Assembly (NCBI GenBank): GCA_028583605.1
Contig: CM053331.1
Location: 6,110,508-6,174,507, forward strand
Reading direction: 5' to 3'
Length of the DNA stretch: 64,000 bases
DNA from: Dastarcus helophoroides
Taxonomy: Eukaryota; Arthropoda; Insecta; Coleoptera; Bothrideridae
Positions within the stretch are counted from its first letter, which is position 1; each line of letters begins with the position of its first letter. A program made the position numbers and the translations under genes. Positions 12,301-59,500 of this stretch are shown here, piece after piece. The notes under the pieces were generated by a model. The model was not told the origin of the DNA and did not search any database. It was given only the letters and a program-made list of their open reading frames with translations.

Positions 12301-15300
12301 AAATTTCGAAAAGAGAAATTGAAAAAATTAACTGGATTTTTTTTATTTTTGATGGAAAGGGTTGGTCCTTGGTTATCTTCAAAAATTGAAATACAGAACT
12401 TGAGAGAAACTCTCTCTGAAAATGACAGCTTGGCTGTCGAAACGCGTTAAAGCAACCTTTGTTGTGTTTTTTAATATTTCTTGGTTTCAGAGGACAAGTT
12501 CTATATTTCAATTTTTAAAATTAACTGGAAGCTTAGAAAAAATTGCCGATCTCTAAAAAAGTCAAAGTTTTTCAGTGAAGAAGAACAATTTCATGGAAAA
12601 AGTTTGGAACAACTCGAAATTTCGAATAAAAATTGCAAATTTCCAGAAAAAGCTCAATTTCGAAAAGAAATTTGCAATTTCGAGAACAAGACGAATTAAA
12701 AAAAAAACTCCAAATTTTCAGATAAATTCGAATTTTGAGAAAATTGGTACAATAACTTCGAAAGAAAATTCCAAGAAAATTTCGAGAAGTGTTAAACCTT
12801 AAAAAATATCAATATTTCCCAAAAGAAGACAAATTTGAGAAAAAGGAAGAGATTTCTAAAAAAAATTAGAAAATGAAGAGATTAAAAAAAATGAATTGTC
12901 TAATTCGGAAAAAAGGAGAAATTTCGAAAAAATGAATTTATCGAAAATTCTCAAAAAAGGCAAAATTTTAGGATAAAAAAAACCTACAATTTCGACAATA
13001 AATTGAAACCCAGGACAAATTAAAAACCTGAAATTTTTAGACAATCTTGAGTTTTTTAAAAAATAGTAAAATTTCGAAAAGTGGAATTGTAAAAATTAAC
13101 TGGAAGCTTAGAAAAAATTGTCGATCTCTAAAAAAGTCGAAGTTTTTCAGTGAAGAAGAAAAAAGTTGAATTTTAGGAAGAATTTCATAGAAAAAGTTTA
13201 GAACAACTCGAAATTTCGATAAAAAATTGCAATTTTCCCACAGAATGCTAAATTTCGAAAATAAATTTGCAATTTCGAGAACAAGGCGAATTAACTCCAA
13301 ATTTTCAGATAAATTCGAATTTTGAATTTTTTTAAATATAGGCAAATTTCGAAGAGTGGAACTGTAAAAATTAACTGGAAGCTTAGAAAAAATTGTCGAT
13401 CTCTAAAAAAAATCGAAGTTTTCCAGTGAAGAAGAAAAAAGCTTAATTTTAGGAACAATTTCATGGAAACCGTTTAGAACGACTCGAAATTTCGATAAAA
13501 AATTGCAATTTTCCCGAGAATGCTAAATTTCGAAAATAAATTTGCGATTTTGGGAACAGGACGAATCAAAAAAACTCCAAATTTTCAGATAAATTCGAAT
13601 TTTGAAAAAACTGGTAAAATAATTAAGAAAAAAAATTCCATGAACATTTCGAGAAGTGTTGAACCTTAGAAAAAGATCAAAATTTCCTAGATAAAGCCAA
13701 ATTTGAGAAAAATCAAAAATTTCTAAAAAAATGGGAAAATGAAGAGATTAAAAAAAATGAATTTGCCTAATTCGAAAAAAGGGAGAAATTTTGAAAAAAT
13801 GATATTATCGAAAATTCTCAAAAAGGGCAAAATTTTTGAATAAAAAGACGTAGAATTTTGAAAATAGATTGAAACCCAGGACAAATTAAAAACTTGAAAT
13901 TTTTAGACAATTTTGAATTTTTTGAAATAACAGTAAAATTTCGAAAAGAGAAATTTTAAAAATTAACTGGAAACTTAGAAAAAATTGTCGATCTCTATAA
14001 AAGTCGAAGTTTTTCAGTGAAGAAGAAAAAAGTTTAATTTTAGGAACAATTTCATGGAAAAAGTTTAGAACAACTCGAAATTTCGATAAAAAAATTGCAA
14101 TTTTCCAGAGAATGCTAAATTTCGAAAATAAATTTGCAATTTCGAGAACAAGACGAATTAAAAAAAACTCCAAATTTTTAGATAAATTCGAATTTTGAAA
14201 AAACTGGTAAAATAATTAAGAAAAAAAATTCCATGAACATTTCGAGAAGTGTTGAACCTTAAACAAAGATCAAAATTTTCCAGAAAAAGCCAAATTTGAG
14301 AAAAAGGAAGAGATTTCTAAAAAAAATTGGGAAAATGAAGAGATTAAAAAAAATGAATTTGTCTAATTCGGAAAAAGGGAGAAATTTCGAAAAAACGAAT
14401 TTATCGAAAATTCTCAAAAAAGGCAAAATTTTAGAATAAAAAGACGTAGAATTTTCACAATAGATTGAAACCCAGGACAAATTAAAAACCTGAAATTTTT
14501 AGACAATTTTGAGTTTTTTAAAATATAGTAAAATTTCGAAAAGTGGAATTGTAAAAATTAACTGAAAGCTTAGAAAAAATTGTCGATCTCTAAAAAAAGT
14601 CGAAGTTTTCCAGTGAAGAAGAAAAAAGTTTAATTTTAGCAACAATTTCATGGAAAAATTTAAAACAAATCGAAATTTCGATAAAAAATTGCAATTTTCC
14701 AGAGAAAGCTAAATTTCGAAAATAAATTTGCAATTTCGAGAACAAGACGAACTAAAAAAAATTCCAAATTTTCAGACAAATTCAATTTTTGAGAAAATTG
14801 GTAAGATAATTTCGAAAGAAAATTTCGAAAAGTGTCGAACCTTAAAAAAACATCAAAATTTCCCAAAAGAAGCCAAATTTGAGAAAAAGGAAGAGATTTC
14901 TAAAAAAATGGGAAAATGAAGAGATTAAAAAAAATAAATTGCCTAATTCGAAAAAAGGGAGAAATTTCGAAAAAATGAATTTATCGAAAATTCTCAAAAA
15001 AAGCAAAGTTTTAAAATAAAAAAAAACGTAGAATTTTGACAATAGATTAAAACCCAGGATAAATTAAAAACCTGAAATTTTTAGAAAATTTTAAATTTTT
15101 TGAAATACAGTAAAATTTCGGAAAAAAAATTAACTGGAAGCTTAGAAAAAAATTGTCGATCTCTAAGAAAGGCGAAGTTTTTTAGTGAAGAAGAAAATAG
15201 TTTAATTTTAGGAAGAACTTCATGGAAAAAGTTTGGAATAAATCGAAATTTTGCTAAAAAAAAAAATAGCAATTATCCAGAGAAACCCAAATTTCGAAAA

Positions 15301-18300
15301 TAAATTTGCAATTTCCAGAACAAGACGAACTAAAAAAAACTCCAAATTTTCAGATAAATTCGAATTTTGAAAACACTGGTAAAATAATTACGAAAAAAAA
15401 TTCCAAGAAAATTTCGAGAAGTGTTGAATCTTAAAAAAAGATCAAAATTTCCCAGAAAAAGCCAAATTTGAGAAAAGGGAAAAGATTTCTAAAAATAAAT
15501 GGGAAAATGAAGAGATTACAAAAAATGAATTTGTCTAATTCGGACAAAGGGAGAAATTTCGAAAAAATGATATGTATTATCGAAAATTCTCAAAAAAAAG
15601 CAAAATTTTAGAATAAAAAAACGTAGAATTTAAAAAAGTGCGAGAAGTAGATTAAAAGTTAGTCAATATTTAAAAAAAAGTAAAGATTTTAAAAAAATTT
15701 AAAAATATTCGATCCAATTTTCGAAAAGTATTAATACTGAAGCAAAGCCAATAAAAATTTGTTCTTTTCCCCACAAATTTCAAATCTTCCGTGGCATTTT
15801 TCCAAAATGTTCTCTCATTCAAAATATCGATTTTTTTAATCTAATTTTTTCTATAAATAGTGACTTTTATGAAATTTCTCAATTACTGCGATAATCGTTC
15901 GTGCAAAAGTCGAAATTTTGATGTTTCTCCAAAAACTTAATAATTGCTTGTAAAGCAAAATTTCTAAAAAACAATTCCGGTTTTTATTTTATTCTTTACC
16001 ACAAAATTTCGATCTTTAACTTCATAAAATTTCCAATTTTTCGAATTTTCGGTTTTTCCAAATTTTTCCACGAAGTTTCGATGCTTCCCCAAAATGTGTT
16101 CTCTTCCCTAGAAATTTCCAGTCTTGACATTTTTCAAAATGTCCTTGCTCTCGAAATATCGATTTTTCACGATTTTGAATTCTTCGCAAGATTTCGAATT
16201 TCGTGAAATTGCTATGAAAATTCGAAATTTGGGTTTTTGGTTTCTGGAAAAACGAAATTTAGAGAAGAAACATCGACTTTTCCTTAAAAAACAAACTTAA
16301 GTAAGAGCTGTAATTTTGAGACTGCATAAAATTTCCAATTTCGTGAATTTTCGATTTTTCCAAATATTTCCATGCAGTTTCGATACTTCACCCTAGAAAT
16401 TTTCAGTCTTGACATTTTTCAAAATGTCCTTGCTCTCGAAATATCGATTTTTCACGATTTTGAATTCTTCGCAAAATTTCGAATTTCACGAAATTCAAAT
16501 TTTTCCAAAATTCTTCTCGATATACAAATCTTGTCCCCTGAAATCAAGAAAGGTTAAAAAACACAACAGTTACTTTCAGCAACTGTCGCGTTTTTTTATC
16601 TTTCTTGGTTTCAGGGTTGTACATCAATTTTTGAAGATAATCAAGGACCAGTTCGTTCTCCCACAATTCTTCCCCAAATTTCGGCGTTTTATCATAATTT
16701 TAACACCTTCTTCGATATTTTTCAAAATGTCAAAATGTTATATTAAATGAAATGGCGATTTTTCTGAAATTCGTGGTAGTTTTCGAAATTTCCGCCAAAT
16801 TTAACGAATTCTGGGGGAAAAAATCGATATTTAGAAAAAACATCGGAGTTTCAGGGAAAGGGGGAATATTGAAAAAAAAATTCTGGAAAAAGTTCTCTTA
16901 GTTGAGCTAGGGGGGTCAAGCGCCCTACCCTGCCCTATTCAAGCTACGCCTTTTTGTTTTGCAAAGCACTTTGGGCTCCTTCTGCAAGTCACCTACCTAC
17001 GCAACTGATTCAGCTGATTGGTTCTTCGCTAGATTGTACCAGGTTTTAAAATGAGACCTGTTTTTTTTGCAGCAAAGATTTTCACTTATGCTAGATATCT
17101 AATATTTAGGAATCTGTGGCTTGGTTCCTTTTTGCAAAAAGCACTCCAAATGTCCGTTTTCTCGAAATATAGATTTTTCACGATTTTAGATACAAAATTT
17201 AAAATTTTGTTTTAAAAAAATGAAGCAAACATTTAAGGGAAAAAAAAAACAGAATTTGGGAAGAGAAAAAAATTGGAAACACGGACAACTTCGCAAAGAA
17301 AGTACACAAACAACTTCGGAAAGCGGATAACCATTTTTACATTTTTCTTGTATTGTCGACTTTTTTTACTAAATTTGTCGAGGATGGATTTATTGATACA
17401 TTTTTTAAAATGTCATTTTTTCCGACATTTCGGTGCTTTCTCAAAAATTGAAAGATTTCCCGTCCGAGTAGTAACTTTCCTCAAAATCCTAACCATTTTT
17501 TTTTTAAATTTTGGCGTTTTCCCCAAATTATTACTTTTGTTCATTTTCCACAATATTTCGACTTTTTTCAAATTTTTTTCCTAAAATTTTGTCAGTCGAA
17601 AAATTGAAGTTTCAATTTGACATATCAACATTTTGGCTTTCTTTTCGAATTTATAAATTAACACAAAATTTAGCAGCACACAAGTAGCAAGAGAACCGTA
17701 TTTAAGAATTTCTAAAAAGTGATTTCAACGAATGATTTTTATGTCAACTCGATAATCGATCGATCGGGTATCAGTTTGTTAAAATGTGACTAGTAAATAA
17801 ATTTTATTAATAATTCACCCATTTGTATGAATGTTAAAAAACGAAATCATATATAAATGATAAATTATTCAATTTTTTATATATTGTTATATAAAGATAT
17901 AAATACATATGACTACTACTTGACATAAATGTCAAAATCTTGACTAGATATGAAAATTTCTTCTTCCAATAATAAATTTAGAATCACTTTGGCATCTCAT
18001 CTTATAAACAAAGATCTGGAATGACTACAAAACAGTCTTAGCCAAAGGCAGTCATCAAACCAATAAACCCTTAAAGCTACCCCTACTTTCTTTTCCTCCC
18101 TTTTTTAATGGCACTCCTAATGTCAGTCTTACCTGATCGTCCGCAATCGGAACAAGAAACCAACTCTTCCGATCCGCCAGTCTTTTTGTTCTCCCGAGAA
18201 TCACCCAAACAAAAATCGCAATAAGGACTAGGAGCGGCCTTCACATCTTTAGGAACATCCAATGATGTCGAGGGAGGAGGTTCGACGGGATTTTCCGGCA

Positions 18301-21300
18301 CCAGAATCGGCATCGGGGGATCCTCCACGTTCGGTGGAGGTTGAACGCTCGGTGGAAGGTTAGGGGGTAGATTGGGAGGAGCGGGGATCATGGGCATGGG
18401 CGGCCCTTGGCCCTGGAGGGGCGGCGCTAAGGGGGGTTGGTTGGGCTGTCTGCCGCGACGAGCGCCTGGTGTACCTGTAGGATATATTGCTCAGTTAGCT
18501 CCACCATTATCTTCTAAAAAGGATACAACAGAAAGTTACAAAGGTGATCAGAAAGTTGGTGGCCTTTCGTCCACAGATTTCAGTCATTTGGTGGCCAATT
18601 TCGATCATCAATTTTCTGAAGTTTGATAAAATTTTGAATGTTGACAATTTTTTTCCCCCCAATCAAACAGAATTTTGCCACACTCGATTTCAAAAACCGT
18701 TGACGAAAGGGCACGTAAAAGATGATTTAAAAAGGGAATACATTCATGCCAAACACTCACATTAAAATGAAACGCCGTAAATTATAATTACAAGTGGCTC
18801 TATACAAAACGTGTTAACCTTGCTGAAAATTAGAATGTTAATGTATTTATAGTGAAAATTAAACTACGGAAAAAAATTGAAATTAGATTCTAAGAGAGCT
18901 CGTCATTCCAACTACACAAGCATGCAAAATCACACAAAATGATGATTAAAATAAAACATCATAACATAATGGCAGTACCGGGTGTCTGGTTCAAAAAGGA
19001 AACATAACTATCTTGGTACACTTGTCCTTGGTTGGGAGGCCCTTGTGGCATGTTGGTCGGCACTTCCCCCATGCCCCCGAGAAGGGGCGGCATCACGACG
19101 CCCATTTGCGCGGGAGTGGGGGCGTTACTGTCGCGTGAATTTTCATCGCTAGCGCCCTCTTTGTGCGAATGGCCGTAGTGGTATGTCAACCCGGGACGTG
19201 TCTTGTATCGCGCTCCGCACACTGAAATTTTTGAAAAAACAAAAAACAATGCCGAAATCCTTGATTTCCACTGATTAATGTTGTTCAAAAGCAGCCGACT
19301 CGTTCGCTTAATTAATAATGCAAATGTGTTAATGAAATTCCGATTTTTTGATATTATTACTTTTTTTTTCATTTTTTGGTATTCTCCTTGTCTATTTTCA
19401 AATTGTTAGAAGCCAAAAATTGACACATTTCAAATTATTCGTTATCTGCGTTTCAAACTATGCAACAATTCACCTACGCCTCTGATTATTGTTGCCATGG
19501 GAACAAAGCATGTATAATTAATTTGTTCTAATTCCAAAATGACAGTTCCATTGGCTTTTTTTTCCAATAAAACATCAATGAAAATAACATTACTTCGCAA
19601 AGAAGATACATATCTATGACAGTTCAACCCTTCTTCTGATCGAAAATCTCGACTTTTTGCTCTTTTTGAAAAACTCGACTATTTTTGAGTTCGTCAATTG
19701 ATTTTTATCAAAACTACTTTATTTTCAAAATTTTGACTTCTCAAAATTTCGATATTTTCTGAACGTCTTAATTTTTTTCAATATCGACTCTTTCTCAAAA
19801 TTTCGACTTCCATAGTTTCCAATTTTTTCAGAAATTCTACCTGTTACGAATTTTTTTTAATTCGTCACTCAAAATTTTGAGCTTTTTTAAAGTTTGGGAC
19901 TTTTTCAGAATTTCGACCTTTTTTAAAACTTCAACATTTTCGACTGTTATTGAAAATTTCCACCTTTTTGAATAATGTAATTTAAAAAAAAGACTTCACT
20001 AAAAATCAATTTTTTTCGTCAATTTCCACTTCTGTGAAAACTTTAGCTTGAATATTTAAGTTTTTTAAAGTTCGCCTTTTTTGAAAATTTTAACATTTCG
20101 GCTTTATCGAATTTGGACATTTACCGAAAATATCGACTTTTATCGCTTTATTTACGAAATTTTCACTCCTCAAAATTTTGAATTTTTTTTCGATTTCCTG
20201 TTCAAAATTTCGTACTATTTTGGAACCTCAACTTTTATAAAAAAATCGAAAAACTCGAAAAATTCAATTATTTATAGAAGTGGAAACCTGTAAACTTTGA
20301 AAATGTCAAATTTTCCAAAAATCTGGAATTTTTCAAAGATTGGTGATTTTTTTTATCTTTAAACCTTTTATGCAAGAAGAATGCAACCTAGACTACAAAT
20401 TCATGCGGCCCTCCAGGCGTGTATAGTAAATCATAGGTAGCTGAACTACCAACAGTTGAAACACTGCCACCTAGCGAAACGGTTGCTCTCTAGGAGAGTT
20501 CCCAGAAGACAAGGATTCTATAATGCACAGACCAATAGGTTTGAACATTTATTAGATTCGAAGTTTGGAAACCAAATACCGGTTTCGATCTTATTAGATC
20601 TCGTCAGTTTGGTATATCCAACTCGAATGCTAATAAATGTTCCGACAAGTAAGTACTAAAGCATTCACAAGCGTTGCATTCTTCTTGCATACGACATTGT
20701 TGGCGATGGCCATAGTTTCTCTATGGGCCAATAGGTGGTAGTACTAAAGAGTCACTCGCTTGACGCTTGTGAATGCTTTAGTACTTACTTGTCGGAACAT
20801 TTATTAGCATTCGAGTTGGATATACCAAACTGACGAAATCTAACAAGATCGAAACCGGTATTTGGTTTCCAAACTTCGAATCTAATAAATGTTCAAATCT
20901 ATTGGTCTGTGCATTATAGAATTTAAACCTTTTACCAAATTTCCAGTTTTTAGGAACGTTCGACTTTTTTGCGAAAATTTTCACTTTTCCACTTTTTTGA
21001 AAAATGTAGATTTTAAAAAAGAAACGACTTCATTGAAATATCAATTTTTTTCGTCGATCTCCACTTCTGTGATCGACTTTTCGTGAAAACTTTAGCAACA
21101 TTTAAGTTTTTTAAAGTTCGCTTTTTTGAAAATTTTAACATTTCGGCTTTATCGAATTTGGACATTTACCGAAAATATCGACTTTTATCGCTTTATTTAC
21201 GAAATTTTCACTCCTCAAAATTTTGAATTTTTTTTCGATTTCCTGTTCAAAATTTCGTACTATTTTGGAACCTCAACTTTTATAAAAAAAAATCGACTTT

Positions 21301-24300
21301 TTTACAAATTTTTCTCGAAAAATTCAATTATTTATAGAAGTGGAAACCTGTAAACTTTGAAAATCTCAAATTTTCCAAAAATTTGGAATTTTTCCAAGAT
21401 TGGTGATTTTTTTAAATTCAAACATTTTACCAAATCTCCAGTTTTTAGAAAAGTTCGACTTATTTGAGAAAAATTTCACCTCTTTCACTTTTTTGAAAAA
21501 TGTAGATTTTAAAAAAGAAACGACTTCATTGAAATATCAATTTTTTTCGTCAATTTCCACTTCTGTGATCGACTTTTCGTGAAAACTTTAGCTTGAACAT
21601 TTAAGTTTTTTAAAGTTCGCCTTTTTTGAAAATTTTAATATTTCGGCTTTATCGAATTTGGACATTTACCGAAAATATCGACTTTTATCACATTATTTAC
21701 GAAATTTTCACTCCTCAAAATTTTGAATTTTTTTTCGATTTCCTGTTCAAAATTTTGTACTTTTTTGGAACCTCGACTTTTATAAAAAAAAATCGAGTTT
21801 TTTACAATTTTTTCTCGAAAAATTCAATTTTTTATAGGAGAAGTGGAAACCTGCAAACTTTGAAAATGTCAAATTTTCCAAAAATTTGGAATTTTTCGAA
21901 GATTGGTGATTTTTTTTATCTTCAAACGTTTTACCAAATTTCCAGTTTTTAGAAACGTTCGACATTTTTTGAGAAAAATTTCACCTTTTTCACTTTTTTG
22001 AAAAATGTAGATTTTAAAAAAGAAACGACTTCATTGAAATATCAATTTTTTTCGTCAATTTCCACTTCTGTGATCGACTTTTCGTGAAAAATTTAGCTTC
22101 AACATTAAGTTTTTTAAAGTTCGCTTTTTTTGAAAATTTTAACATTTCGGCTCTATCGAATTTGGACATTTACCGAAAATATCGACTTTTCAAAAAATTC
22201 GACTTTTCAAAAATCTCGACTTTTTCTCCAAATTTCAATTTTTCTCATAACATCAAACTTGTTTTAAAAATATGCTTTTTCTTCAAAATTTCGACGTTTT
22301 TTTCAAAAATGAAGCTTTTTTGAAAATTTTGGCTTTTAAAAATGTTGATGTTTTTCTCAAAATTTCGCTTTCTCGCGACATCGACTTTTTTGAAAATTTC
22401 GACCATTTTCAAATATGTCGACTCTTTAAATCTTCCATTTTTTCTCAAATTTAGATTTTTTTTTTGTAAACTTCGACTTCTTATAAATACTATCCTTCCT
22501 CAAAATTTCGACTTTTTTGAAAAATTCAACCTTTTTCCAAAATTTTCCAAAATTTTCACTCCTGAAAATTATATGAAAAACTCGACTTTTTTACAATTTT
22601 TTTTCGAAAAATTTGATTTTTTATGCAAAAGTTGAAATATAAACTCGCAACTTTTTCAAAAATTTATGCTTTGTTAAAATTTTAAATTTTTTAACAAAAT
22701 TACGAATTTTTCTCGAAATTCTGATTTTTTGGAAAAGGCCCCCAATATTTCTACCTCCTCCAAAACTTCCAAACTTTTTAAAAAAAAAATTTTTCCCAAT
22801 TTTGATTTTCTGTATTGATACTTTTTCCAAAATTTGGATTTTTTTGAAAAATTCGACCTTTTTTATTTTTTTAAAATTCGGTTTTCAAAATTGCGAATTT
22901 TTAAAAATTTGGTCCTTTTTCAAAATTTCGATTTTTTTGAGATTCTGAATTTGCCAAAAATGTTCACTGCTCAAGAAGAATGTTTTCCTTTTATACTCAA
23001 AATTTCAACTTTTACAATTTTTTTTTTTAATGCGACTTTTTTATGGAAAAGTTGAAATCTAAACTCTCAAGAATTTTTCAAGTTGATGCTTTGTTAAAAT
23101 TTTAAATCTTTTACCAAAATTTCGAATTTTTGTCAAAATTTTGATTTTTTTGAAGTCCTCTCTCCCAATATTTTGAAAAATTCAATTTTTTCATGGAAAA
23201 GTTGAATTCTAAACTCTCAAGACTATTTCAAAAGTTTATGCTTTGTTAAAATTTTAAATCTTTTAACAAAATTTTAAATTTTTCTCGAAATTCTGATTTT
23301 TTTGAAAAGTCCTCCTCCCCAATATTTTAACCTTGTCCAAAATTTGAACCTTTTAAAAAATATGTGCATATTTTATTTTTATTTATTTTTTTTTTTTTCA
23401 TAATTTTGACTTATTTTAAACTTCGGTTTTCTGTACTGATACATTTTCTCATAATTTCGACCTTTTTTTAAACATTCAACCTTTTTCAATTTCTTTTTTA
23501 ATTCGTCTTTCAAATTTTCGAATTTTAATAATCGTTCGTTCCTTTTTCAGAATTAGGATTTTTTTGAAATTTCGATTTTTTTAAATTTTGAATTTTTCAA
23601 AAATTTTCACTCCTCAAAATTTTGAACTTTTTTCCTTTTCTACTCAAAATTTCGTCTTTTTTTTGTAACTTCAGACTTTTTAAAAAAATTCCAACTTTTT
23701 TTACAATTTTTTTTTCGAAAAATTCGATTTTTTTTACGGAAAAGTTGAAATCTAAACTCTCAAGACTTTTTCAAAAGTTTATGCTTTGTTAAAATTTTAA
23801 ATCTTTTAACAAAATTTTGGAATTTTTCTCGAAATTCTGATTATTTTTGAAAAGTCATCCGCCCCAATATTTCGACCTTATCCAAAATTTTAACTTTTTA
23901 AAACATATTTGCACTTTTTAAAATGTTGTTTTTCATAATTTTGACTATTATTTTAAACTTCGGTTCCCTGTATTGATACTTTTTCTCAAAATTTCGACTT
24001 TTCATGAAAAATTCGACCTTTTTTTTTAATTCGTCTTTCAAAATTTCGAATTTTAAAACAGGTCCTTTTTAAAAGTTCGATTTTTTGAAATTTTGAATTT
24101 TTCAAAAATTTTCACTCCTCAAAATTTTGAACTTTTTCCTTTTCTATTCAAAATTTCGCCTTTTTTGTAACTTCAGACTTTTTTTTGAAAATTCCGACTT
24201 TTTTACATTTTTTTTTCGAAAAATTTGATTTTTTTATGGACAAGTTGAAATCTAAACTCTCAAGACTTTTTCAAAAGTTTATGTTTTGGAAAAATTTTAA

Positions 24301-37135: not shown

Positions 37136-37515
37136 GTAAGTCGATTAGTTAGGTTATGTCCCTCTATTAAAAACCTCCCGTTTCAGGCCGAAGGGCCAAG
37201 AAGGCGGCCGCCTCTTCTGGTAAACGCACAAATACCGTATTTCCCGATATGAAAGATCACGAGGCCGTGCAAAGGTTCTTCTTGCAAGAAATCCAATTAG
37301 GGGAAGAATTATTGGCCGCTGGTGACCTTGAAAATGGGGTTGACCACTTGGGTAATGCCGTGGCCGTTTGTGGGCAACCTAACGATCTTTTGCAAGTGTT
37401 ACAACAAACTCTGCAACCTCAAGTTTTCCACTTACTCGTTCAGAGGTTGCCCGCTGTAGCGCCTCGATTGATGAAGGCCCAATCGGCCCCCATGCAGGAG
37501 GACGATGTTGAATAG
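37006..37515 (+). CDS. Tom20: Tom20, mitochondrial import receptor subunit
   Basis: Exons 37006-37135 and 37187-37515 with a 51-bp GTAAGT...TTTCAG intron encode 152 residues, close to the usual 145. Residues about 8-28 (AALVAAGVCGTLFLGYCIYF) are the N-terminal membrane anchor, followed by FDHQRHSDPDFKRKLRERR and a Lys/Ala-rich linker. The receptor domain has EAVQRFFLQEIQLGEELLAA, the TPR-like helices and NAVAVCGQPNDLLQVLQQTL, ending in the acidic EDDVE typical of Tom20. In this family the protein sits in the outer mitochondrial membrane with its receptor domain in the cytosol and binds mitochondrial presequences as part of the TOM complex. The gene is divergent from d4 and convergent with cofilin. 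AATAAA lies at 37632. Confidence 0.96.
37187..37515 (+). CDS. Tom20: Tom20 exon 2 (receptor domain)
   Basis: Begins after TTTCAG with the remainder of an Arg codon and runs to TAG at 37513-37515. It encodes the cytosolic TPR-like presequence-binding domain and the acidic C-terminus. The ATG at 37249 is internal, not the start. Confidence 0.95.
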
Positions 37516-37637: not shown

Positions 37638-38124
37638 ATGTTATAAATATGCAAAGATTTCATTAAAATCATATGCATTTAGAAAATTATGTTTTTCCTA
37701 ATAGGTTATTACTGTATCATTGTCGCTTTTTCTAAACATCATGGCCACTGTTTAAAACGTCATGGTTGTCACTTTTTCCATTTGATTATATTAACCTTCG
37801 GGGAAAGTTTGTTTTAATTGGGAAAAAGTTACCTTGTAGATTAACAATCACTTTACATCCGCCTGAGAGGCCAGCTACAGCATACGTAATTAAAAATTCA
37901 CGAATTTGTGTGTGCACGTTATTTAAATTGAATAAATATTCGAAGATGTACAAAAAAATTGTTTTGCAACATCAGTACTAACTGGACCAAAGTTATCGAG
38001 AACTTTGGTTGTTAATTTTTCTTCTTGAAGATAAAATTTTAAAGTGATGTATTATTTTTTCATAAATTCCATTTCCATAAATTAAGTAAGATTAAAATCG
38101 AAATTTTAAAGATAATTTTTTTTT

Positions 38125-38260
38125 GGTGAAACGGATTGGTTCTTAGTTATCTTCAAAAATTGAAATACAAATCTTGTCCCCTGAAACCAAGAAAGATTAA
38201 AAAACGCAACAAAGGTTGCTCTAACGAGTTTCGATAGCCAAGCTATCATCTTCAGAGATA
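38125..38260. repeat. foldback element copy E
   Basis: Left end GGTGAAACGGATTGG, TCTTAGTTATCTTCAAAAAT, CTTGTCCCCTGAAACCAAGA, then the core on the minus strand (CTGAAGATGATAGC, TTG, GCTATCGAAACTCG). The stem III palindrome is broken by one base. The other arm is missing. Confidence 0.7.
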
Positions 38261-41590: not shown

Positions 41591-44500
41591 CTGCAACAAC
41601 ACCAAAATTATTAACGAGTCATCAATGCAAAACAATTTTTTGATATTGTCAACTTTATATTTGAAAATAGAACACTTGAAAAAGTTGGAAGTTGAAACTT
41701 TACGGGAGAAGTCAACATTCAAAATTAATCCTAATTTCATGAAAAAGAAATATTCGATTTCAAAATCTGGGGAACCAAATTAAAAATGTTTACGATTAAA
41801 CTGGAGTTTTAGGCAAAACCGAGAAATTGGTCGAAATTTATTTTCAAATTCAAATTGAGGGTTGAAACATGAATGGTTACAAAAATAGTTAATTTTATTC
41901 AAAATTTCGACCCCTTCATTTGAATTTTTGACTCTAATCTTAGAAAATTGATATACACATCGTGTCCTGGCTCTGGAACAATTGTTGTGCTTTTAATCGT
42001 TTAGTTGCAGGGGACAAGAATTGTATATCAGTTTTTGAATCTTCAAAAATTGATATACAAATCTCTATCTAGCCAACGACCAGTTAAAATTATCTAATTT
42101 TAGAATTGATAAAAAATTCTATATTTCGAGTTAAACATTTTGAGGAAAAGTTGACATTTCGAAAGAAATTGAACATTTAAAAAAATCAAATTCGAAATTT
42201 AACAAGAAATGTTGGGAACAAAGTCGAAATTTAGAGAAAATTTTGAAGTGAATGAATTGTGACATTTAAACTAGAAGTTGACAAAACTTGGAACTTTAGG
42301 CTCGAAATTTCCAAGAGGATGGAAATTTTTAATTTTTTTGGTATAAATTCACTCACCTGGAATACAACATCTTCTTCTTAACCTTGGCGGTGTCGGGACA
42401 CCAGGACATTAGGAAGAGTTTTTGTTTTTTAGAGGACTCCGAAGTACCCTGACATTGATGCATATATTCAAAATCGAAAAGACCGTAGCGGCATTCACCG
42501 GCACCGCCAGCCTGCAGGTTCTGCAAGAACTGATCGTATTCCTCATCACGGGCCCCTATCACCTCTACGTCGATCTGTTTTTCATCTTTAATAAAGAAAA
42601 TTACGTAGCGGTGTTTTTTGTCTTTCTTGATTTCTTCGTATGTCGTTTTACACGAATCGGAAACTGTTACACCTGATGCCTGCAAAAAAAAATTTTTATT
42701 AGTTAAGTGGAGCCAAAAATGTTAGGTACAAAGCGAAAACATTCACAAAAATTACTTAAATAATCAACAGGTGCTGCTGGGAAAGTTAAGTTATATTATT
42801 TATTAGAGATTATTTCGGTCACTTTAATTTTCTTTTTTCTTCTTTTCATCTCCTGTATCAGATCTTTTTAATTTTCTCTCTCCACTCAAGCGCTTTATTC
42901 TCTCGGCTCTTTCCCTTTCCTTTTTTCTCTACCTTTTCCGCCCCTATCTCTTCCTTCCGAGTCTCTTTCACTCTTCCTCATTATATTGCGTCTCTCGTTT
43001 AAAAAGCTTTACTAAAAAGGACTGAGGGAGTGATGACAACAATTTGAAGAAACCTGACGATGACAACAAACTGAAGAATGCCGATGACAACAAACTGAAG
43101 AAAGTCGATGACAACAAACTGAAGAAAGCCGATGACAACAAACTGAAGAAATCCGATGGCAACAAACTGAAGAAAGCCGATGACAACAAACTGAAGAAAA
43201 CCGATGACAACAAACTGAAAAAAATCGATGACAAAAAACTGACGAGGCGAAAAATTGAGAAAAGTTAATAACAATAATCAATTCGAGAAGGAATCAGCTG
43301 TGAAGCAATTTACTCATACGAGATGAACGAGATGATAATAGAAATATTTAAACTGTCAATGGATGGACACTTGATAATATTATCCCAAATTAATGAAAAA
43401 TTATTTGTTTCTGTTGTACTATAATTAACTAATGACCTACAACAGATTACTTAAATTTTGGAAATTTGCCGAATATTAAACACTAAAGCAATTTTGTCAA
43501 TGTGCCCACTGTTTATATTATTTTCTAACATTTTCATTTCTGCGTATTTTTAAAGCGTGTAGCAACCATATGAGCTCCAATTCAGTAACTAATAATAAAA
43601 TAAATTGCATTTGAATCTTTTTATAACAAAAGGAAATGAGTAATTGGTATATTTACTCCTAACTAAATATTAAAAAAAAATTGATTGTTATGAATACTGT
43701 TCGCATAAAAATGTACACAAATTTAATTGTTTTGTTAAATATTTTTTTTGCGTTGTTCCCAAATAAATTAAATTTTAATAACCTAGTCAGAAACTCATAC
43801 GATTAACCACTTTTCAAATTACTTTCCTGAAAAGTCAACATGTAAGTTTTTTTTTTAAATTTCTGGATTTAAGTCAAAAAAGAGGAAGAACTTTTAAATG
43901 CTGAATTCAAAATTTGGCTTCCCTTTCAAATTTCGACTTTTTTCCCGAAAGTTCGAGCTTATCAGCAAAATGTTGACACAAAAGTCGAAATTCCAGACTT
44001 TCCTTGGAAGTTAAGAAAGGTCAACATTTTAAATTTGGAATCTATATGACTTCAAAAGCATTTCTAGTTAACATTGGCTTTTTTTTGTAAAATTTGATTG
44101 TTCAACCCAAGATCTAGACTAGTTTTTGAAATTCTGATGATTTTGTCGTGATTTGGAGCTTTTCTTAAAATTTCGAGCTTACCCTGACGTTTTCAACTTT
44201 TGAATTCATTCCATTTTATTAATTTCGAGTTTTTCGTTAAATGATTTTAAAATTTTGAACATAAACTCGAATTTTGAACTTTTTTTTTTTGAATGCTTAT
44301 CGTTTTGAGAATTTTTTTCCCGACCTTGACATTTTGACTCGTCTGGAAATTTCCACTTGTCTGGAAATTTCGACCTCTCCTTCAAAATTTTAGTTGGCGC
44401 TCGAAACTTGGGCCTTTTTCTCGAACCCTTCTGGAAATTTCGATGTTTTTTGGAAATCTCCACTGTGAGTGGCCAATTTTGATATTTTTTTCCTGCTATG

Positions 44501-47500
44501 GCGAAAGAGTCGAACATTATGAAAATTCCGGCATTTTTTGAATTTTACTTTTATTTAAAAAAATCCATAAAATTTCGAGTTTTTTCATAAGATGGATTTT
44601 TTAGGACTTTTTTGAAACTTCCAACATTTTTTCAAAATTTCCATGTTTTTTAAATTCCCACTTTTTAAAATTTCGATTTTTTTTTAAATTTTAACCTTTT
44701 TCAAAATTTGGACCTTTTTCAAAATTTTGATCTTCATTCAAAATTTCGATCTATTTTCAAACTTTTTACTTTCCCACGAAACTATCAAGATTCACAAATT
44801 CCAATTTTTTTAAAAATTCGCCTTTACCTGAAAATTTCGTTTTTTTTTAAATCTGACTATTTTTGAATTGCGAATTTTCAAAATGTTGAAAACTTGAAAA
44901 ATGTCACTTTTTAAAATAGAACCTTTAAAATCGAAATTTACTTGAGCCTCGAATTCGTTCGAAATTTAAAAATTCGCAATTAGGAAAGTAAAATTCTTCA
45001 AAAAAATTAAAAACTCTCAGGAACAGATTAATTTTTCAAAAAATCAATTACAAAAATTCGAAGTTTTCACCAGAACCGAACTTTTAAAAAGATAGAAATT
45101 TCGAAAAAATTCAGACATTGAAAAAAACCACAGCTTTAAAAAAGGCCAAATTTGGATGATGAAAGATAGAAATTTTCAAAAAAAAGTGAAAATTCTGAAA
45201 AAATTCGAGAGTTTCAAAGTCGCAATTTTAGAAAATCAATTTTTCAAAAAGTAATATTTTCGGAAAAAGTCGACTTTTTTAAATAAAAGCCCAATGTACT
45301 ACATGCTTCAAGGGCGAAACTTCGAGAAAAAGTAACATTTTTGAAAAAAAAAATGTCGAAATTTCGAAAAAAGGTTGAAACTTCGAAATTTAACATTTTT
45401 TTTTGGTGGAACAGACTGATCCTTGGTTATCTTCAAAAATTGAAATACAAAACTTGTCCCCTGAAACCAAGAAAGATTAAAGATGATAGCTTGGCTGTGG
45501 AAACGCGTTAGAGCAACCAATTTTTGGAGCATATTTATAAGAGACCAAAACTTTGAAAAAAAATCGAAATTTTGACAAAACAGTTTCGTGTCAAAATTTT
45601 TACAAAAAATGGAAATTTTCAAAAAAGGGAGACATTTGCGAAAAAAAATTAATTTTCATAATAAATGGCAGAGATTTAAAAAAAACTGGAATAAGTTAGA
45701 AAATTTTAAAAATATCAAGTTTGAGAAAAATTCAATTTTTCAAAAAATCGAAATTTAACAAACTCGAATTCTATAATGCACAGACCAATAGGTTTGAACA
45801 TTTATTAGATTCGAAGTTTGGAAACCAAATACCGGTTTCGATCTTGTTAGATCTCGTCAGTTTGGTATATCCAACTCGAATGCTAATAAATGTTCCGACA
45901 AGTAAGTACTAAAACATTCACAGGCGTCAAGCGAGTGATTCTTTAGTACTACCACCTATTGGCCCATAGAGAAACTATGGCCATCGCCAACAATGTCGTA
46001 TGCAAGAAGACTCGAATTATTCAAATAAAAGTTCAATTTACTATAATAAAAATCCTGCTTAAAAAAGTCAAATTAATCAAAAAGGTCGAAATTAAAAAAA
46101 ATCGTTATCATAAAAAAATAATCTTTCAAGAAGTCGAAATTTCCAAAAAAAATCACAAAATACGACATTTTGAAAGAAAAGGTGGAAATTTTCAGTTTTT
46201 ATTTGAGAGAAAAATAGGAAAATAAATAGAAATAAATTTGAGGAAAAGCGAAAATTTTGAAGAATGTGACAATTTTCAAAAACCAAAATTTTGGAAAAAC
46301 ACCTAAATTTTGAACGCAGTGAAAATCAATCAAAAATTTGAGAAAAATTGAAATTTTCAAAGTCAAAATTTCGACAAAAATGAAATGTCGAAATTTAAAA
46401 AATCGAATTTACAAAAAAGTCGTAATTTCGAGAAAATCAAAATTTAAAAAAAAAAAACTTTTTAAGAAGTCCAAATTTTGAAAAAATCGATTTTTAAAAA
46501 TATAGTCGCAATTTAACAATTGAAACATTCAAAATGACGAGAATTTTCACAAAATGTCAAAAAGCTGAGAAAAATCAAAATTTTCAAAAAAAAAATGGAT
46601 TTTCAGGAAGTCAAACTTTTGAAAAAACAGTCGGAATTTAAAAAGATAAGTCGAAATTTAAAATTTTAAAATGTAAAAAAAATTAAAATTTTTCAAAAAT
46701 ATCAAAAATTTCAGAAAATTGAAATTTTTAGTCAAAACTTCGAAAGTCAAAATTTCGAAACAAGGTTAAAATAAAAAAAAGCGATTTTCAGGAAGTCAAA
46801 ATTTTAAAAAACAGTCTAAATTAAAAAAAGAAAGTTAGGATTATTCAAATAAAAGTTCAATTTACTACAATAAAAATCCAAACTTAGAGAAAAAGTTAAA
46901 ATTCTTGAAAATTTGCCATTTTCAAAGAAAAGTCAAAAATTTCGAAAAATTGTCAAAAGCTGGACAAAGGTGAAAATTTTCAAAAAAAGGGTAGAAGCTT
47001 TCAAAAGTCAGTATTTCGACATGATCAAATTTATAGAAAAATTAAAATTTTGAACCAAAATCACAATTTTGAGAAAAGATGAAATTTTGAGAAGACTGAA
47101 ATTTTAAGAAAAGAGTAAAATTTTGAGAAGATCGAAATTTTGAGAGAAGATTGGAATTTTGTGAAATTTTTTTTAAAACAATTATAATTTAGAAAATAAA
47201 TTAAAATTCCAAAGAAAGGCGAAACTATTTTCAGAAAAATCGAAAACCAAATTTTCAATTCTCGAAATTGTTCAAAAAGTCGACATTATTAAAACAATCG
47301 AATTTCAAAGAGATCAATTTTTTTAAAAATAAATAAGTAAAACGTTTAGAAAATGTCGAAAAGTTAAGCAAAATCGAAATTCTCTGAAAGTCAAAATTTC
47401 GAAAAAGTCAAAATTTAGAAACAAGGTTAAAATTGAAAAAAAGCGATTTTCAGGAAGTCAAAATTTTGAAAAACAGTCGAAATTAAAAAAAAGTTGGAAT

Positions 47501-50500
47501 TATTCAAATTGAAGTTCAATTTACTACAATAAAAATTGAAACTTGGAGAAAAAGTCAAAATTCTTGAAAAGTCACAATTTTTAAAGAAAAGTAAAAAATT
47601 GTCAAAAGCTGGACAAAGGTGAAAATTTTCAAAAAAAGGGTAGAAGCTTTCAAAAGTCAGTATTTCGACATGATCAAATTTATAGAAAAATTAAAATTTT
47701 AAACAAAATCACAATTTTGAGAATGGTGGAACGGAGTGATCCTTAGTTATCTTCAAAATTTGAAATACAGTCTCTCTGAAGATGATAGCTTGGCTGTCGA
47801 AACGCGTTAGAGCAACCTTTGTTGTGTTTTTTAATCTTTCTTGGTTTCAGGGGACAAGATTTGTATTTCAATTTTGAGAAGATTGAAATTTTGAGAAAAG
47901 ATTGAAATTTTGAGAAGAGTAAAATTTTGAGAAAAGATTGAAATTTTGTGAAAAAATTTTTAACAAAATTATAATTTAGAGAATAAATTAAAATTCCAAA
48001 GAAAGGCGAAACTATTTTTCCGAAAAATCGAAAATCAAATTTTCAATTCTTGAAATGTTCAAAAAGTCGACATTATTAAAATAATCGAATTTCAAAGAGA
48101 TCAAAATTTTTTAAAATGAGAAAGTAAAACGTTTAGAAAATGTCGAAAAGTTGAGCAAAATCGAAATTATCAGAAAGTCAAAATGGCGAGAAAACCAAAA
48201 TTTTAAAACAAGGTTAAAATAAAAAAAAACGATTTTCAGGAAGTCAAAATTTTGAAAAATAGTCTAAATTAAAAAAAAAGTTGAAATTATTCAAATAAAG
48301 GTTCAATTTACTACAATAAAAATCGAAACTTGGAGAAAAAGTCAAATTCTTAAAAAGTTGCAATTTTCAAAAAAGGTTAAAAATTTCGAAAAATTGTCAA
48401 CAGCTGGACAAAGGTGAAAATTTTCAAAATAGGGTAGAACCTCTCAAAAGTCGGTATTTCGACATGATCAAATTTATAGAAAAATTAAAATTTTGAACAA
48501 AATCACAATTTTGAGAATGGTGGAACGGAGTGGTCCTTGGTTATTTTCAAAATTTGAAATACAGTCTCTCTAAAGATAAAAGCTTGGCTGTCGAAACGCG
48601 TTAGAGCAACCTTTGTTGTGTTTTTTAATCTTTCTTGGTTTCAGGGGACAAGATTTGTATTTCAATTTTGAGAAAAGATTGAAATTTTGTGAAAAAATTT
48701 TTAACAAAATTATAATTTAGAGAATAAATTAAAATTCCAAAGAAAGGCGAAACTATTTTTCCGAAAAATCGAAAATCAAATTTTCAATTCTTGAAATGTT
48801 CAAAAAGTCGACATTATTAAAATAATCGAATTTCAAAGAGATCAAAATTTTTTAAAATGAGAAAGTAAAACGTTTAGAAAATGTCGAAAAGTTGAGCAAA
48901 ATCGAAATTATCAGAAAGTCAAAATGGCGAGAAAACCAAAATTTTAAAACAAGGTTAAAATAAAAAAAAACGATTTTCAGGAAGTCAAAATTTTGAAAAA
49001 TAGTCTAAATTAAAAAAAAAGTTGAAATTATTCAAATAAAGGTTCAATTTACTACAATAAAAATCGAAACTTGGAGAAAAAGTCAAATTCTTAAAAAGTT
49101 GCAATTTTCAAAAAAGGTTAAAAATTTCGAAAAATTGTCAACAGCTGGACAAAGGTGAAAATTTTCAAAAAAGGGTAGAACCTCTCAAAAGTCGGTATTT
49201 CGACATGATCAAATTTATAGAAAAATTAAAATTTTGAACAAAATCACAATTTTGAGAACGGTGGAACGGAGTGGTCTTTGGTTATTTTCAAAATTTGAAA
49301 TACAGTATCTCTAAAGATAATAGCTTGGCTGTCGAAAAGCGTTAGAGCAACCTTTGTTGTGTTTTTTAATCTTTCTTGGTTTCAGGGGACAAGATTTGTA
49401 TCTCAATTTTGAGAAAAGAGTAAAATTTTGAGAAAAGATTGAAATTTTGTGAAACAATTTTTAAAAAAATTATAATTTAAAAAATAAATTAAAATTCCAA
49501 AGAAAGGCGAAACTATTTTCAGAAAAATCGAAAACCAAATTTTCAATTCTCGAAATTGTTCAAAAAGTCGACATTATTAAAACAATCGAATTTCAAAGAG
49601 ATCAATTTTTTTAAAAATAAATAAGTAAAACGTTTAGAAAATGTCGAAAAGTTAAGCAAAATCGAAATTCTCTGAAAGTCAAAATTTAGAAACAAGGTTA
49701 AAATTGAAAAAAAGCGATTTTCAGGAAGTCAAAATTTTGAAAAAGTCGGAATAATAAAAAAAAAAAGTTGGAATTATTTATATAAAAGTTCAATTTACTA
49801 CAATAAAAATCGAAACTTGGAGAAAAAGTCAAAATTCTTGAAAAGTCGCAATTTTCAAATGGTCAAAAATTTCGAAAAATTGTCAAAAGCTGGACAAAGG
49901 TGAAAATTTTCAAAAAAAGGGTAGAAGCTTTCAAAAGTCAGTATTTCGACATGATCAAATTTGTGGAAAAAATAAAATTTTATACAAAATCACAATTTTG
50001 AGAAAAGATTGAAATTTTGAGAATAGAGTAAAATTTTGAAAAGATTGAAATTTTGAGAAAAGAGTAAAATTTTGAGAAAAGATCAAAATTTTCAGAAATG
50101 ATTGGAATTTTGTGAAAAAATTTTGAAAAAAATTATAATTTAGAAAATAAATTAAAATCCCAAAGAAAGGCGAAACTATTTTCAGAAAAATCGAAAACCA
50201 AATTTTCAATTTTCGAAATGTTCAAAAAGTCGACATTATTAAAACAATCGAATTCGAAAGGCATCAACTTTTTTTAAAACAAATAAGTAAAATGTTTAGA
50301 AAATGTCGAAAAGTTGAGCAAAATCGAAATTCAAGTCAAAATTTCGAAACAAGGTTAAAATTTAGAAAAAAGCGATTTTCAGGAAGTCAAAATTTTGAAA
50401 AAGTCGGAATAATAAAAAAAAAAAGTTGGAATTATTTATATAAAAGTTCAATTTACTACAATAAAAATCGAAACTTGGAGAAAAAGTCAAAATTCTTGAA

Positions 50501-56500: not shown

Positions 56501-59500
56501 TAAAGGGAGCCAAAGAGTTAAAATTTCGAGAAAGTCAAAATTTTGAGAAAAAGTGGAAATTTTACGAAAAAAGTTTATTTCTTCAGAAGATAGCAAAATT
56601 TCGGAAAAAAAATAGAATTTTTTTGAAAAATGAAATTTTAAAAAATGGAAAAAAAAAGATTATTTCAAATATGTCAAAACTTTGAGAAAGAACGAAATTT
56701 TTAAAGGATCGATATTAACAAAAAAAACAACGAAATTTTCAACAAAAATAAGTAAAAATTTTTAACAAAGACAAAATGTAGAAAAAAAACCGAAATTTTC
56801 AAGGAAAATGGAATTTTTTTAAAAATTTCAAATTTATCAGTTAAAAAAAAAATTCAATATTTCGAAAAAAAAACCGAGATTTTGCGCAACGTTGATATTT
56901 TCTTCAAAAAGTCAAAATTTCGAAAAAGTTGAGTTTTTTTGAAAAATTCCAAATGTTCAAATGGTTGACATTTCTAAAATAATCGAATGTTTCAAAGAAG
57001 TCAAAATTTCTCAAAAAAGTTGAAATTCACAAAAAGTGCGACAGTTTCAAAAAAACAATTGAAATCGAATTTTTCAACAAATCGAATTTAAAAAAGTTGA
57101 AATTTCGAGAAAACAAATTTTTGAAACAGGGCTGAATGTTTAAAAAGAGCAGGTTTCCAAGAATGGTGGAAATTTTGAAAAAATCGAAATTTAAAACATG
57201 AGAAATTCGAAAAAATTTAAAATTTTTCAAAAATGTTAAAACTGATAAAACTTCAAAAGGGCCGAAGTTTAAAAAAAATTAAATTTTCAGAAAAAGTATA
57301 ATTTTGAAAAAAGTGAAAATTTTGAAGAGACAATTTTGAAATAAAGTTAAAACTTTCAAAAAACTCAAAGTGTAGAAAAATATAGAAATTAACAGGAAAA
57401 GTCGAATTTTTTCAAAAAAATCGAGTCAAAATTTCAGAAAGTCAATAATTTCAAAAATAGGCGGAAATTTTGAAGTCTAAATTTTCGGCAAAAAGTCAAA
57501 ATTTTGAAGAAAAAGCAGACATTTTGAAAAAAGTTAAAATTTTGGCAAAAAGTCAAAATTTTGAGAAAACAGTCGAAATATTAAAAAAAAGTCGATATTT
57601 TCGCCAAAAGTTAAAATTTTGGCAAAAAGTCAAAATTTTGAGAAAAGTCGAAATATTGAAACAAAAGTCGATATTTTTGCTAAAAAGTCAAAATTTTGGA
57701 AATAGAAGCATTTTTTTTGAAAGAGTGAAAATATTCCAAAAGTCCACACTTCTAGAATAAACATCTTTACAGAAGTCGAAATTTTTGAAAAAGAAGTCAA
57801 AATCAAAAAGTTGGAAAAAGTCGCAAAACGAATTAATAAAATCGAAATTTTTTTTTTAAAAAAGGGAAATTTTCAACAATTTGATAAATAACTAAATTTT
57901 GAAGAAAATCGAAATGTAGAACTTCAAGAAAGAAACATTTTTCAAAGTCAAAAGTCAAAGTCGCAATCTTGGGAAAAGTCGAAATTTTTGTAAGGATCGA
58001 CTTTTACAAAAAAATCAAGTTTTTAAAAAAATCCAAAATTTTCAAAAATGTCAAAATCTAAAATAAAATCTGAAGATGATATCTTGGTCGAAACGTTTCG
58101 AAATTTATTAATTTTGACTTTTTCCACTTCCAAAATTTTTCTAAATTCCATTTTCCTTGAAAGGGAAGTAATTTTTTTTCAAAAAAGGTCAAATCGAGTT
58201 AAAATTTCTAGAAAAACCCATAATTTCGCCAAAAGCAGATTTTTTTTAAATAGTCAACATTTTTTAAATAAGTCAAAATTTTTGAGAAGTCGAAATTTTA
58301 ATTGTCGAAATCCTTCAAAAGTCTGCATTTTAAAAATAGTCGAAACTTCCAAAGAATTGAAATACACATCTTGTCCCCTGAAACCATCTTTCTTGGTTTC
58401 AGAGGACAAGATTTGTATTTTAATTTTTGAAGGTAACCAAAGACCAGTCCACCAAAACTTCCAAAGTCGAAATTTTCAAAAAAGTCAAAGTTCCAATAAG
58501 AATGAAACGTGTCAAATTCCAAGTAGCAAAATAAAGCTGAAAGTTATAAAGTTAAATGCTCTACAGTTAATTTTCTAGAAGTCAGAAATTTCCTCACTTC
58601 GGATTCTTTTTAGTTCAATCATTTTTGGTTTCAACCAAAATAAAAAAATAACGATGTCCAATTAAATTTAGTAATTATGCAAATATACACATAAAAAATG
58701 TTTTTTTCAGCATTTTTGTAGTCTCTGTAGGAAAAATAAATCTTGAAACTCAAACAATTTATAAAAATATAAATATTTCTTCAAGAATCTCTTATTATTA
58801 AGCGATGATTTAAAAAATAACGTCACTAGATTTTGCGAAAAAAATTCTGCTCAACCCAAGCCTCATTAACCTTTAAATCATGTCTTGCTTTGACCATCAT
58901 TTCCCCAATCAATAATTTTAATCCGCTTTTAATGCTTAGACAATATTTACCCCCAAGTCGTAATTTTCCGGCATAGGCGCCGCCTAAACTAATAAAAAAA
59001 TACCCAAATCCGGTAACCGTGCCTGTTTCAAATTAAAGGAGGTCGAAACGATCGAAATAGAATTATTTCAAGAGCAAGGTAAACTTAAATCAAGATGCCA
59101 TACATAGCGAAATGCTATTTATATAAAGGCCACATGTGAAGAATGTTTTTTGAGTTATCTGCCACGAGGAATTCGTCGGGGTCGGGTTTGTTTGAGAGCG
59201 TCTAGCCGTATCGTATTATTAAACATTTTTAAAAGCATATTAAATATCGGATGTCACGTATCCATATTTATCCACACTGCTTCCGAAAAAGCATCCATGA
59301 ATAATTCCACACAAAACGAGATAATCCGTTAACACATTAACATTAACCTTGACAAGCTACTGACTTTAAAGAGAATGAATCATAGTGCATCAGGTAAATG
59401 GATAAGAGATAAAAAGAAGTCATCTTCGTGGAACCTTTGACTCACTTTAACGGAAAAAATACCCAAACCGAAGCCACTTTAACTAGTAATAATAGGGAAG

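Follow-up and report, generated by a model that had tools for sequence, protein, structure and literature searches.

Animal retrozymes are abundant RNA circles made by ribozymes, and the available text of their description (PMC7229834) leaves the mobilising enzyme undecided between LINEs and Penelope-like elements. This question is still treated as undecided in the accessible part of a 2024 review (PMC11722881). Penelope insertions comprise inverted pLTRs and 9–10 bp duplications, with an optional tail on one inverted pLTR, and the preferred explanation of the head-to-head copies of A. vaga Penelope is self-priming on antisense RNA (available sections of PMC3846280). For PAc of Anolis, the accessible part of PMC11167929 describes the tail as the stretch between two internal reverse transcription starts, with both target strands cut and extended. 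Reverse transcription starts are equal on both strands, and ribozyme mutants still inserted. The PAc ORF begins at hammerhead stem II, 26 bp ahead of the cut. Here, a 64,000-nt stretch of the beetle Dastarcus helophoroides (hereafter the window; host assembly of 538.9 Mb in 50 contigs) was analysed together with related loci retrieved from the same genome, which carry the prefix L.

Results

Hammerhead motif and its copies in the window

The motif lies at 45816–45874 on the minus strand, with a predicted cut between 45830 and 45829; the coordinates, strand, core and cut site given in a preliminary description of this DNA are all correct, and the observation of a hammerhead motif is confirmed at the level of sequence. 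It consists of stem I (ACCAAA/UUUGGU plus an outer extension), CUGACGA, stem II (GAUCU/AGAUC) with the loop AACA, GAA, ACCGGU, an A and the cut site. Accordingly, CUGANGA, GAA and NUH occur in the correct order of a type I core, together with stems I and II. A second site at 20563–20621 (−), likewise announced as intact with a different stem II loop base, has a complete core and differs from the first by a single C/T exchange in loop II. Both sites are supported by the sequence, a core scan and a relaxed Rfam match. In a third motif at 20816–20874 (+, core at 20830), recognised from the sequence and a relaxed Rfam match, the first stem II pair is broken (A/C). Also belonging to this family is an old relic (81%) at 448–565 (−), whose decayed core at 522 has GAC in place of GAA.

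A type I scan, composed after the finding was known and permitting a loop-less stem III, returned two sites in the window, 45816–45874 and 20563–20621, against a chance expectation of 0.02 sites per window (four sites across 200 windows simulated from the dinucleotide frequencies of the window). The preliminary description had set the lack of a hammerhead hit above threshold as grounds for refutation, and formally this is the outcome, as the Rfam search of the window gave no match above the gathering score. Under relaxed settings, RF02275 (Hammerhead_HH9) was the best Rfam match for three copies, at 20554–20625 (−; E = 4.8e-5, 34.9 bits), 45807–45878 (−; E = 6.9e-5, 34.4 bits) and 20812–20883 (+; E = 8.6e-3, 27.9 bits), all below the cut-off of 52 bits; the likeness to this family concerns the shared core. 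A whole-genome search with RF00163 produced one match, also under the cut-off (E = 6.5e-4), on a relative of the repeat (L001). The hammerhead reading stands, since the missed cut-off carries less weight than the E-values, a complete core and a family spread through the genome. No match to the ribozyme pattern was found in the viral contigs searched.

Among 79 motif instances with intact flanks, 66 are identical and complete. In 62 older arms (85–97% identical), position H17 is A in 44, C in 24, T in one and G in none of 69 cells; hammerheads do not tolerate G at this position. The mismatch rate is 2.4% in the core and 4.0% elsewhere in the unit, a difference that is not taken as proof, given that some of the loci had been retrieved by a ribozyme-spanning query. 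Compensatory stem changes were not seen among the copies, which are too alike. The earlier suggestion that the fold was retained despite sequence drift has a weak basis in the single differing loop base, and the H17 pattern serves it better. The epithet "textbook" is too strong for a motif of putative activity whose helix III appears in a reduced, dimer-type form.

Helix III is the palindromic ACCGGU without a loop. Folding energies assign −13.0 kcal/mol to the hammerhead-type fold of a lone ribozyme, as opposed to −16.6 kcal/mol for the best fold, which pairs CUG with CGG. For two copies, the predicted double hammerhead (−35.3 kcal/mol) lies close to the best dimer fold (−35.6 kcal/mol), and tandem arms make two ribozyme copies available per transcript. 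This near-optimal predicted fold supports the proposed link between the loop-less stem III and dimer action. According to the available text of PMC7229834, amphibian HHR_Amex1 and its newt relatives similarly possess a one-pair helix III under a palindromic tetraloop and are weak alone and better as dimers; the beetle motif differs in its CCGG tetraloop and in its unit length (377 nt versus 330–350).

Repeat unit and its relation to animal retrozymes

The hammerhead is contained in a repeat unit of 377 nt with 42.7% GC, which occurs singly and in head-to-tail runs, the longest of which reaches 3.07 units in one arm (L005). Queried with 247 nt surrounding the reported copy, the genome yielded 1086 first-look candidates, and the 40 that were scored are full-length matches with 98–100% identity. 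Searches with the remainder of the unit and with the old relic gave 794 and 911 candidates, respectively, again with 40 scored. These candidate numbers (794–1086) are not copy counts, and young copies are over-represented because the loci were chosen by similarity, with 40 candidates scored per search. The predicted 377-nt circle folds at −132.8 kcal/mol, compared with a mean of −91.4 kcal/mol for 100 shuffles (z = −6.6), and the 239-nt window copy has a fold z of −8.8. Antisense stop-to-stop stretches of about 90–114 aa span the unit in several copies (e.g., L075, L018 and L060).

The tandem units of 150–450 bp, each holding a single type I hammerhead, the GC content below 50%, the duplications longer than 4 bp and the strongly self-paired predicted circle are all shared with the animal non-LTR retrozymes described in the available text of PMC7229834. 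By these features, the 377-nt repeat is best read as a non-autonomous animal non-LTR retrozyme of the beetle, in agreement with the retrozyme link drawn in the preliminary description. The beetle element differs from the published ones in that its RNA circle is a prediction. It also differs in having two fixed reverse transcription starts, one-each pairing of these starts and head-to-head copies, which that text does not mention.

Insertion anatomy of the retrozyme

The reported copy is a single-arm insertion at 45771–46009 (−; locus L002), covering unit positions 2 to about 240 and flanked by a 9-bp duplication, ACTCGAATT, at 45762–45770 and 46010–46018. The second and third motifs belong to one two-arm, head-to-head insertion at 20371–20921, bounded by a 13-bp duplication, TTTAAACCTTTTA, at 20358–20370 and 20922–20934. 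Its left arm (20371–20674, −) has its outer 3′ end at unit position ~10, a point denoted E2, and its right arm (20673–20921, +) ends at ~242, a point denoted E1, which is also the outer 3′ end of the single-arm insertion. Two neighbouring repeat copies represent the empty target site: the sequences at 21314–21554 (+) and 21814–22059 run straight across the joined flanks with 92.6% and 93.5% identity, respectively.

Unit coordinates were mapped on 91 search loci and the window, and removal of two edge copies and of duplicates with identical flanks left 84 insertions. L016 and L017, at two contig places (C6 and C1), share their retrozyme and Penelope-like insertions as well as the flanks, and represent either a segmental duplication or an assembly duplicate. 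The outer ends of the arms fall on two points, E1 (median unit position 241) and E2 (median 10). E1 lies 60 nt past the ribozyme cut (unit position 181), and E2 lies about 147 nt farther, approximately 206 nt past the cut. With ranges of 230–252 for E1 and 1–22 for E2, fixed after the first data were seen, the 84 insertions comprise 37 head-to-head E1/E2 copies, 20 single arms with E1, 15 with E2 and five with another end; the remaining head-to-head copies are two E1/other, four E2/other and one other/other. Thus, 37 of 44 head-to-head insertions pair E1 with E2 and seven have an end outside these ranges, while same-end pairs are absent among the 44 (no E1/E1 and no E2/E2). The 30 loci fetched later (L062–L091) contributed nine E1/E2 and no same-end pairs. 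Free choice at the single-arm frequencies (20:15) would yield 49% mixed pairs, and the probability of 37 mixed pairs out of 37 is 3e-12. The seven odd loci are L029, L036, L051, L072, L076, L083 and L091. L076 and L091 are E1/E2 when judged by their alignment ends. L083 falls 2 nt and L072 3 nt outside the E1 range, and the ends of L029, L036 and L051 do not fit E1/E2. The insertion at L051:1196–1642 is a young head-to-head copy. Its arms match the unit at 100% identity, and the second of them terminates at unit position 156 rather than at E1. This copy shows a possible 8-bp duplication and may reflect a third, rare start site.

Duplications of at least 9 bp were detected in 39 insertions, namely 31 E1/E2, two single-arm E1, four single-arm E2 and two with other ends; in the 31 E1/E2 insertions they measure 9–14 bp with a mode of 12. 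Both outer ends of the head-to-head copies resemble cDNA starts, in that the target 3′ ends continue into the unit in antisense. The duplications suggest, from this layout, a staggered break with 3′ overhangs of approximately 12 nt. Micro-homology at the two primer ends scored 52 and 42, as against re-paired means of 17.8 and 14.0 (0 of 5000), but this measure was left out of the evidence because picking the longest duplication inflates it and creates part of the signal. All 42 insertions of exactly two arms have mutually different junctions, and each insertion is therefore a separate event.

Arms longer than one unit account for 47 of 134, and eight exceed two units. The 5′ ends of five of the 134 arms fall at 176–188, around the cut, which is close to an even spread. 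The lack of a pile-up led us to reject cDNA run-off at the ribozyme cut, with cut linear monomers as the main template. Since the arms cross the cut site in this manner, the template must have been continuous there, either as a circle or as uncut tandem RNA; linear tandem transcripts could serve as the template equally with circles. Arm 5′ ends are densest at unit positions 81–110 (27/134), just inside a predicted hairpin at ~59–107, where reverse transcriptase perhaps stops. In the predicted circle, E1 and E2 occupy opposite strands and adjoin the same internal loop (pairs 1–3/239–241 and 7–12/229–234).

Penelope-like family in the same genome

A Penelope-like family adjoins the retrozyme repeat in the window. 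Head-to-head arms are present at 755–975, where the right arm bears a hammerhead-like motif (846, +) and a tail; at 16503–16663 and at 58346–58450, each with one tail-less and one tailed arm and the latter with a 12-bp duplication; and at 47724–47883, which has a hammerhead-like CTGAAGA at 47776 (+), a tailed left arm, a right arm unclassified by the script and an 11-bp duplication. Further copies occupy 12348–12526, 38100–38258, 45402–45526, 48518–48676 and 49260–49417. By eye, the motif comprises CUGAAGA, one extra U, stem II GAUAGC/GCUAUC (GCUGUC at 47776) and the palindrome ACGCGU, and an ATG at stem II opens a reading frame, with the cut position 26 nt on. The extra U before stem II makes the motif no more than hammerhead-like, and neither the relaxed Rfam search nor the strict type I scan of the window reported it.

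After duplicate removal, the window and the loci contain 73 arms of this family, whose 3′ ends were classified as A (23), B (33) or unclassified (17); A and B are about 35 nt apart and correspond to tail-less and tailed arms, respectively. They form 26 head-to-head pairs, namely 11 A/B, 11 B/unclassified, two A/unclassified, one A/A and one with both ends unclassified, and these are partly dependent, as those at 47724, 48518 and 49260 lie in mutual repeats and two L021 pairs have a common arm. The 11 A/B pairs occupy different places. No tail/tail (B/B) pair was observed among the 26, and 11 of them show a duplication of at least 9 bp. End A lies about 66 nt past the motif cut position, near the 60-nt distance of E1 in the retrozyme. 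By eye, UCUGUG occurs 8–10 nt ahead of the start in several copies, in the contexts ..TCTGTGTTTCAATTTT (end A, Penelope-like) and ..TCTGTGCATTATAG (E1, retrozyme).

Relics of a GIY-YIG endonuclease were found at four distinct loci (L063/L092, L011/L054/L055, L034/L035 and L061). Pfam PF01541 scores above the cut-off at L063/L092 and L011/L054/L055, is weak in L061 and is absent in L035. The motif-and-tail family and these relics indicate Penelope-like elements in the same genome; a complete Penelope ORF was not seen in the window and the retrieved loci, and neither was any long sequence similarity between the retrozyme and the Penelope-like pLTR.

Other features of the window include remains of a Gypsy-like retrotransposon at 4419–7700 (zinc knuckle, reverse transcriptase motif and integrase-like pieces, with a K/E/R-rich repeat; named by eye), to which pieces in L011/L054 are related. 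A foldback at 2884–3033 (−) matches the plant miRNA model MIR7723 (E = 1.9e-12, 72 bits versus a cut-off of 200) and is probably an inverted repeat. Exon pieces resembling, by eye, cofilin/twinstar and a PHD-finger DPF protein lie at 42356–42721 (−) and 18086–18490 (−), respectively, and a TOM20 exon at 37171–37512 is 94% identical to a Henosepilachna protein. The former two hint at an insect host. The best named protein matches come from beetles, and Henosepilachna is a ladybird, so that the sequence itself suggests a cucujiform beetle.

Discussion

The retrozyme insertions combine inverted arms, one of which is tailed, with duplications of about 10 bp (37 of 44 head-to-head copies being E1/E2), and this arrangement equals the published layout of Penelope-like insertions, which supports the Penelope link proposed in the preliminary description. 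According to the available sections of PMC3846280 and PMC11167929, the Penelope/Poseidon clade likewise has inverted pLTR arms, duplications of about 10 bp, a hammerhead upstream of the starts and, on a single arm, a tail equal to the stretch between two internal reverse transcription starts. The same arrangement recurs in the Penelope-like family of the beetle, whose tail measures about 35 nt compared with about 147 nt in the retrozyme; in the clade the tail is 30–40 nt. The retrozyme unit is not an autonomous Penelope-like element, because 377 nt leave no room for an ORF encoding reverse transcriptase and GIY-YIG endonuclease. Because the layout is Penelope-like, the enzyme is most likely a Penelope-type reverse transcriptase with a GIY-YIG endonuclease. 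We therefore assign a probability of roughly 0.78 to the reading that the ribozyme belongs to a beetle non-LTR retrozyme copied by such an enzyme from two fixed starts.

In the proposed mechanism, tandem retrozyme copies would be transcribed, and adjacent hammerheads of one transcript would pair through ACCGGU, forming a double hammerhead that cuts. RNAs of 377 nt would be set free and probably closed to circles. The insertions indicate a target break with an approximately 12-nt stagger, where the 3′ ends of the two target strands would each act as a primer for copying the retrozyme RNA into cDNA, one at the fixed internal point E1 and the other at E2. Synthesis of cDNA would proceed toward the RNA 5′ end, across the ribozyme cut and sometimes for up to three rounds of the unit. 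It would halt at varied sites, after which either the two cDNAs would be united head to head or one arm would be attached to the target on its own. A tentative extension, which we hold at slightly less than even odds, is that a dimer of the Penelope-type reverse transcriptase works on a single circle of retrozyme RNA. In its rod-like fold, the circle would present the two starts beside one internal loop, and each protomer would take one strand of the staggered break, giving one E1 arm and one E2 arm. The tail/no-tail pairing of Penelope could have the same cause, and animal retrozymes might then be parasites of Penelope, as SINEs are of LINEs.

Several other explanations can be weighed against this reading. 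A Penelope-type enzyme might use a single target-primed start and then generate the second arm by self-priming or a switch of template, the route suggested for A. vaga Penelope (available sections of PMC3846280), rather than by priming from both target strands. By our own count, the arm ends lie within 5 nt of each other at seven of 42 two-arm junctions, where about one would be expected from an even spread, which favours such a route. At the other 35, however, the arms end farther apart, mostly at unrelated unit positions, and self-priming does not account for the second outer end being the other fixed point; we regard this mechanism as unlikely. The 377-nt unit could also be the pLTR of an unseen Penelope-like element dispersed as solo pLTRs, given that its hammerhead, pair of ends, tail and head-to-head layout are each characteristic of Penelope. 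Against this, the 377-nt units follow one another directly with nothing between them, and the Penelope-like pLTR in the genome has a different sequence, which makes a solo pLTR quite improbable. Mobilisation by a LINE, with ordinary target-primed reverse transcription and twin priming as the source of head-to-head copies, would also be compatible with target duplications and variable 5′ truncation. Twin priming by LINEs, however, is not known to use two fixed starts with one-each pairing. Poly-A is absent at the 26 junction pairs inspected, and in its two fixed ends the retrozyme resembles the Penelope-like family of this beetle. LINEs have been named in the literature as a candidate source of the enzyme (available text of PMC7229834), yet we consider their involvement here rather improbable.

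The hammerhead might also be a chance or dead sequence without a role, in keeping with the lack of any score over the Rfam gathering threshold and the preference of a lone copy for another fold. This is very unlikely in view of the chance expectation of 0.02 sites per window, the predominance of identical and complete motifs among intact-flank instances (66/79) and the restriction of H17 to A or C, with T once and G never (69 cells). A foldback or MITE-type DNA transposon with an incidental hammerhead-like sequence would account for two-arm copies that look like long inverted repeats with duplications. The duplications vary from 9 to 14 bp, however, single-arm copies exist, and the 42 differing junctions together with the multi-turn copies led us to reject it for the two-arm insertions; we consider it extremely improbable.

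Animal retrozymes themselves are already known, and the new part lies in the insertion anatomy, namely the two starts, their one-each pairing and the head-to-head arms. No report of such a rule for retrozymes was found in the openly accessible literature searched. No beetle retrozyme appeared in the literature on hammerhead ribozymes and Coleoptera, as judged by titles and the beginnings of abstracts, and the literature joining retrozymes with target-primed reverse transcription yielded, by its listing, an LTR-element study only. The retrozyme insertions record the reaction that made them, preserving the start points of the enzyme, the length of its runs and the joining of the ends. This record agrees with that left by the beetle's Penelope-like family and points to a Penelope-type reverse transcriptase. 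The pairing rule, by which each start site provides one arm, is a constraint that any mechanism of Penelope insertion should explain.
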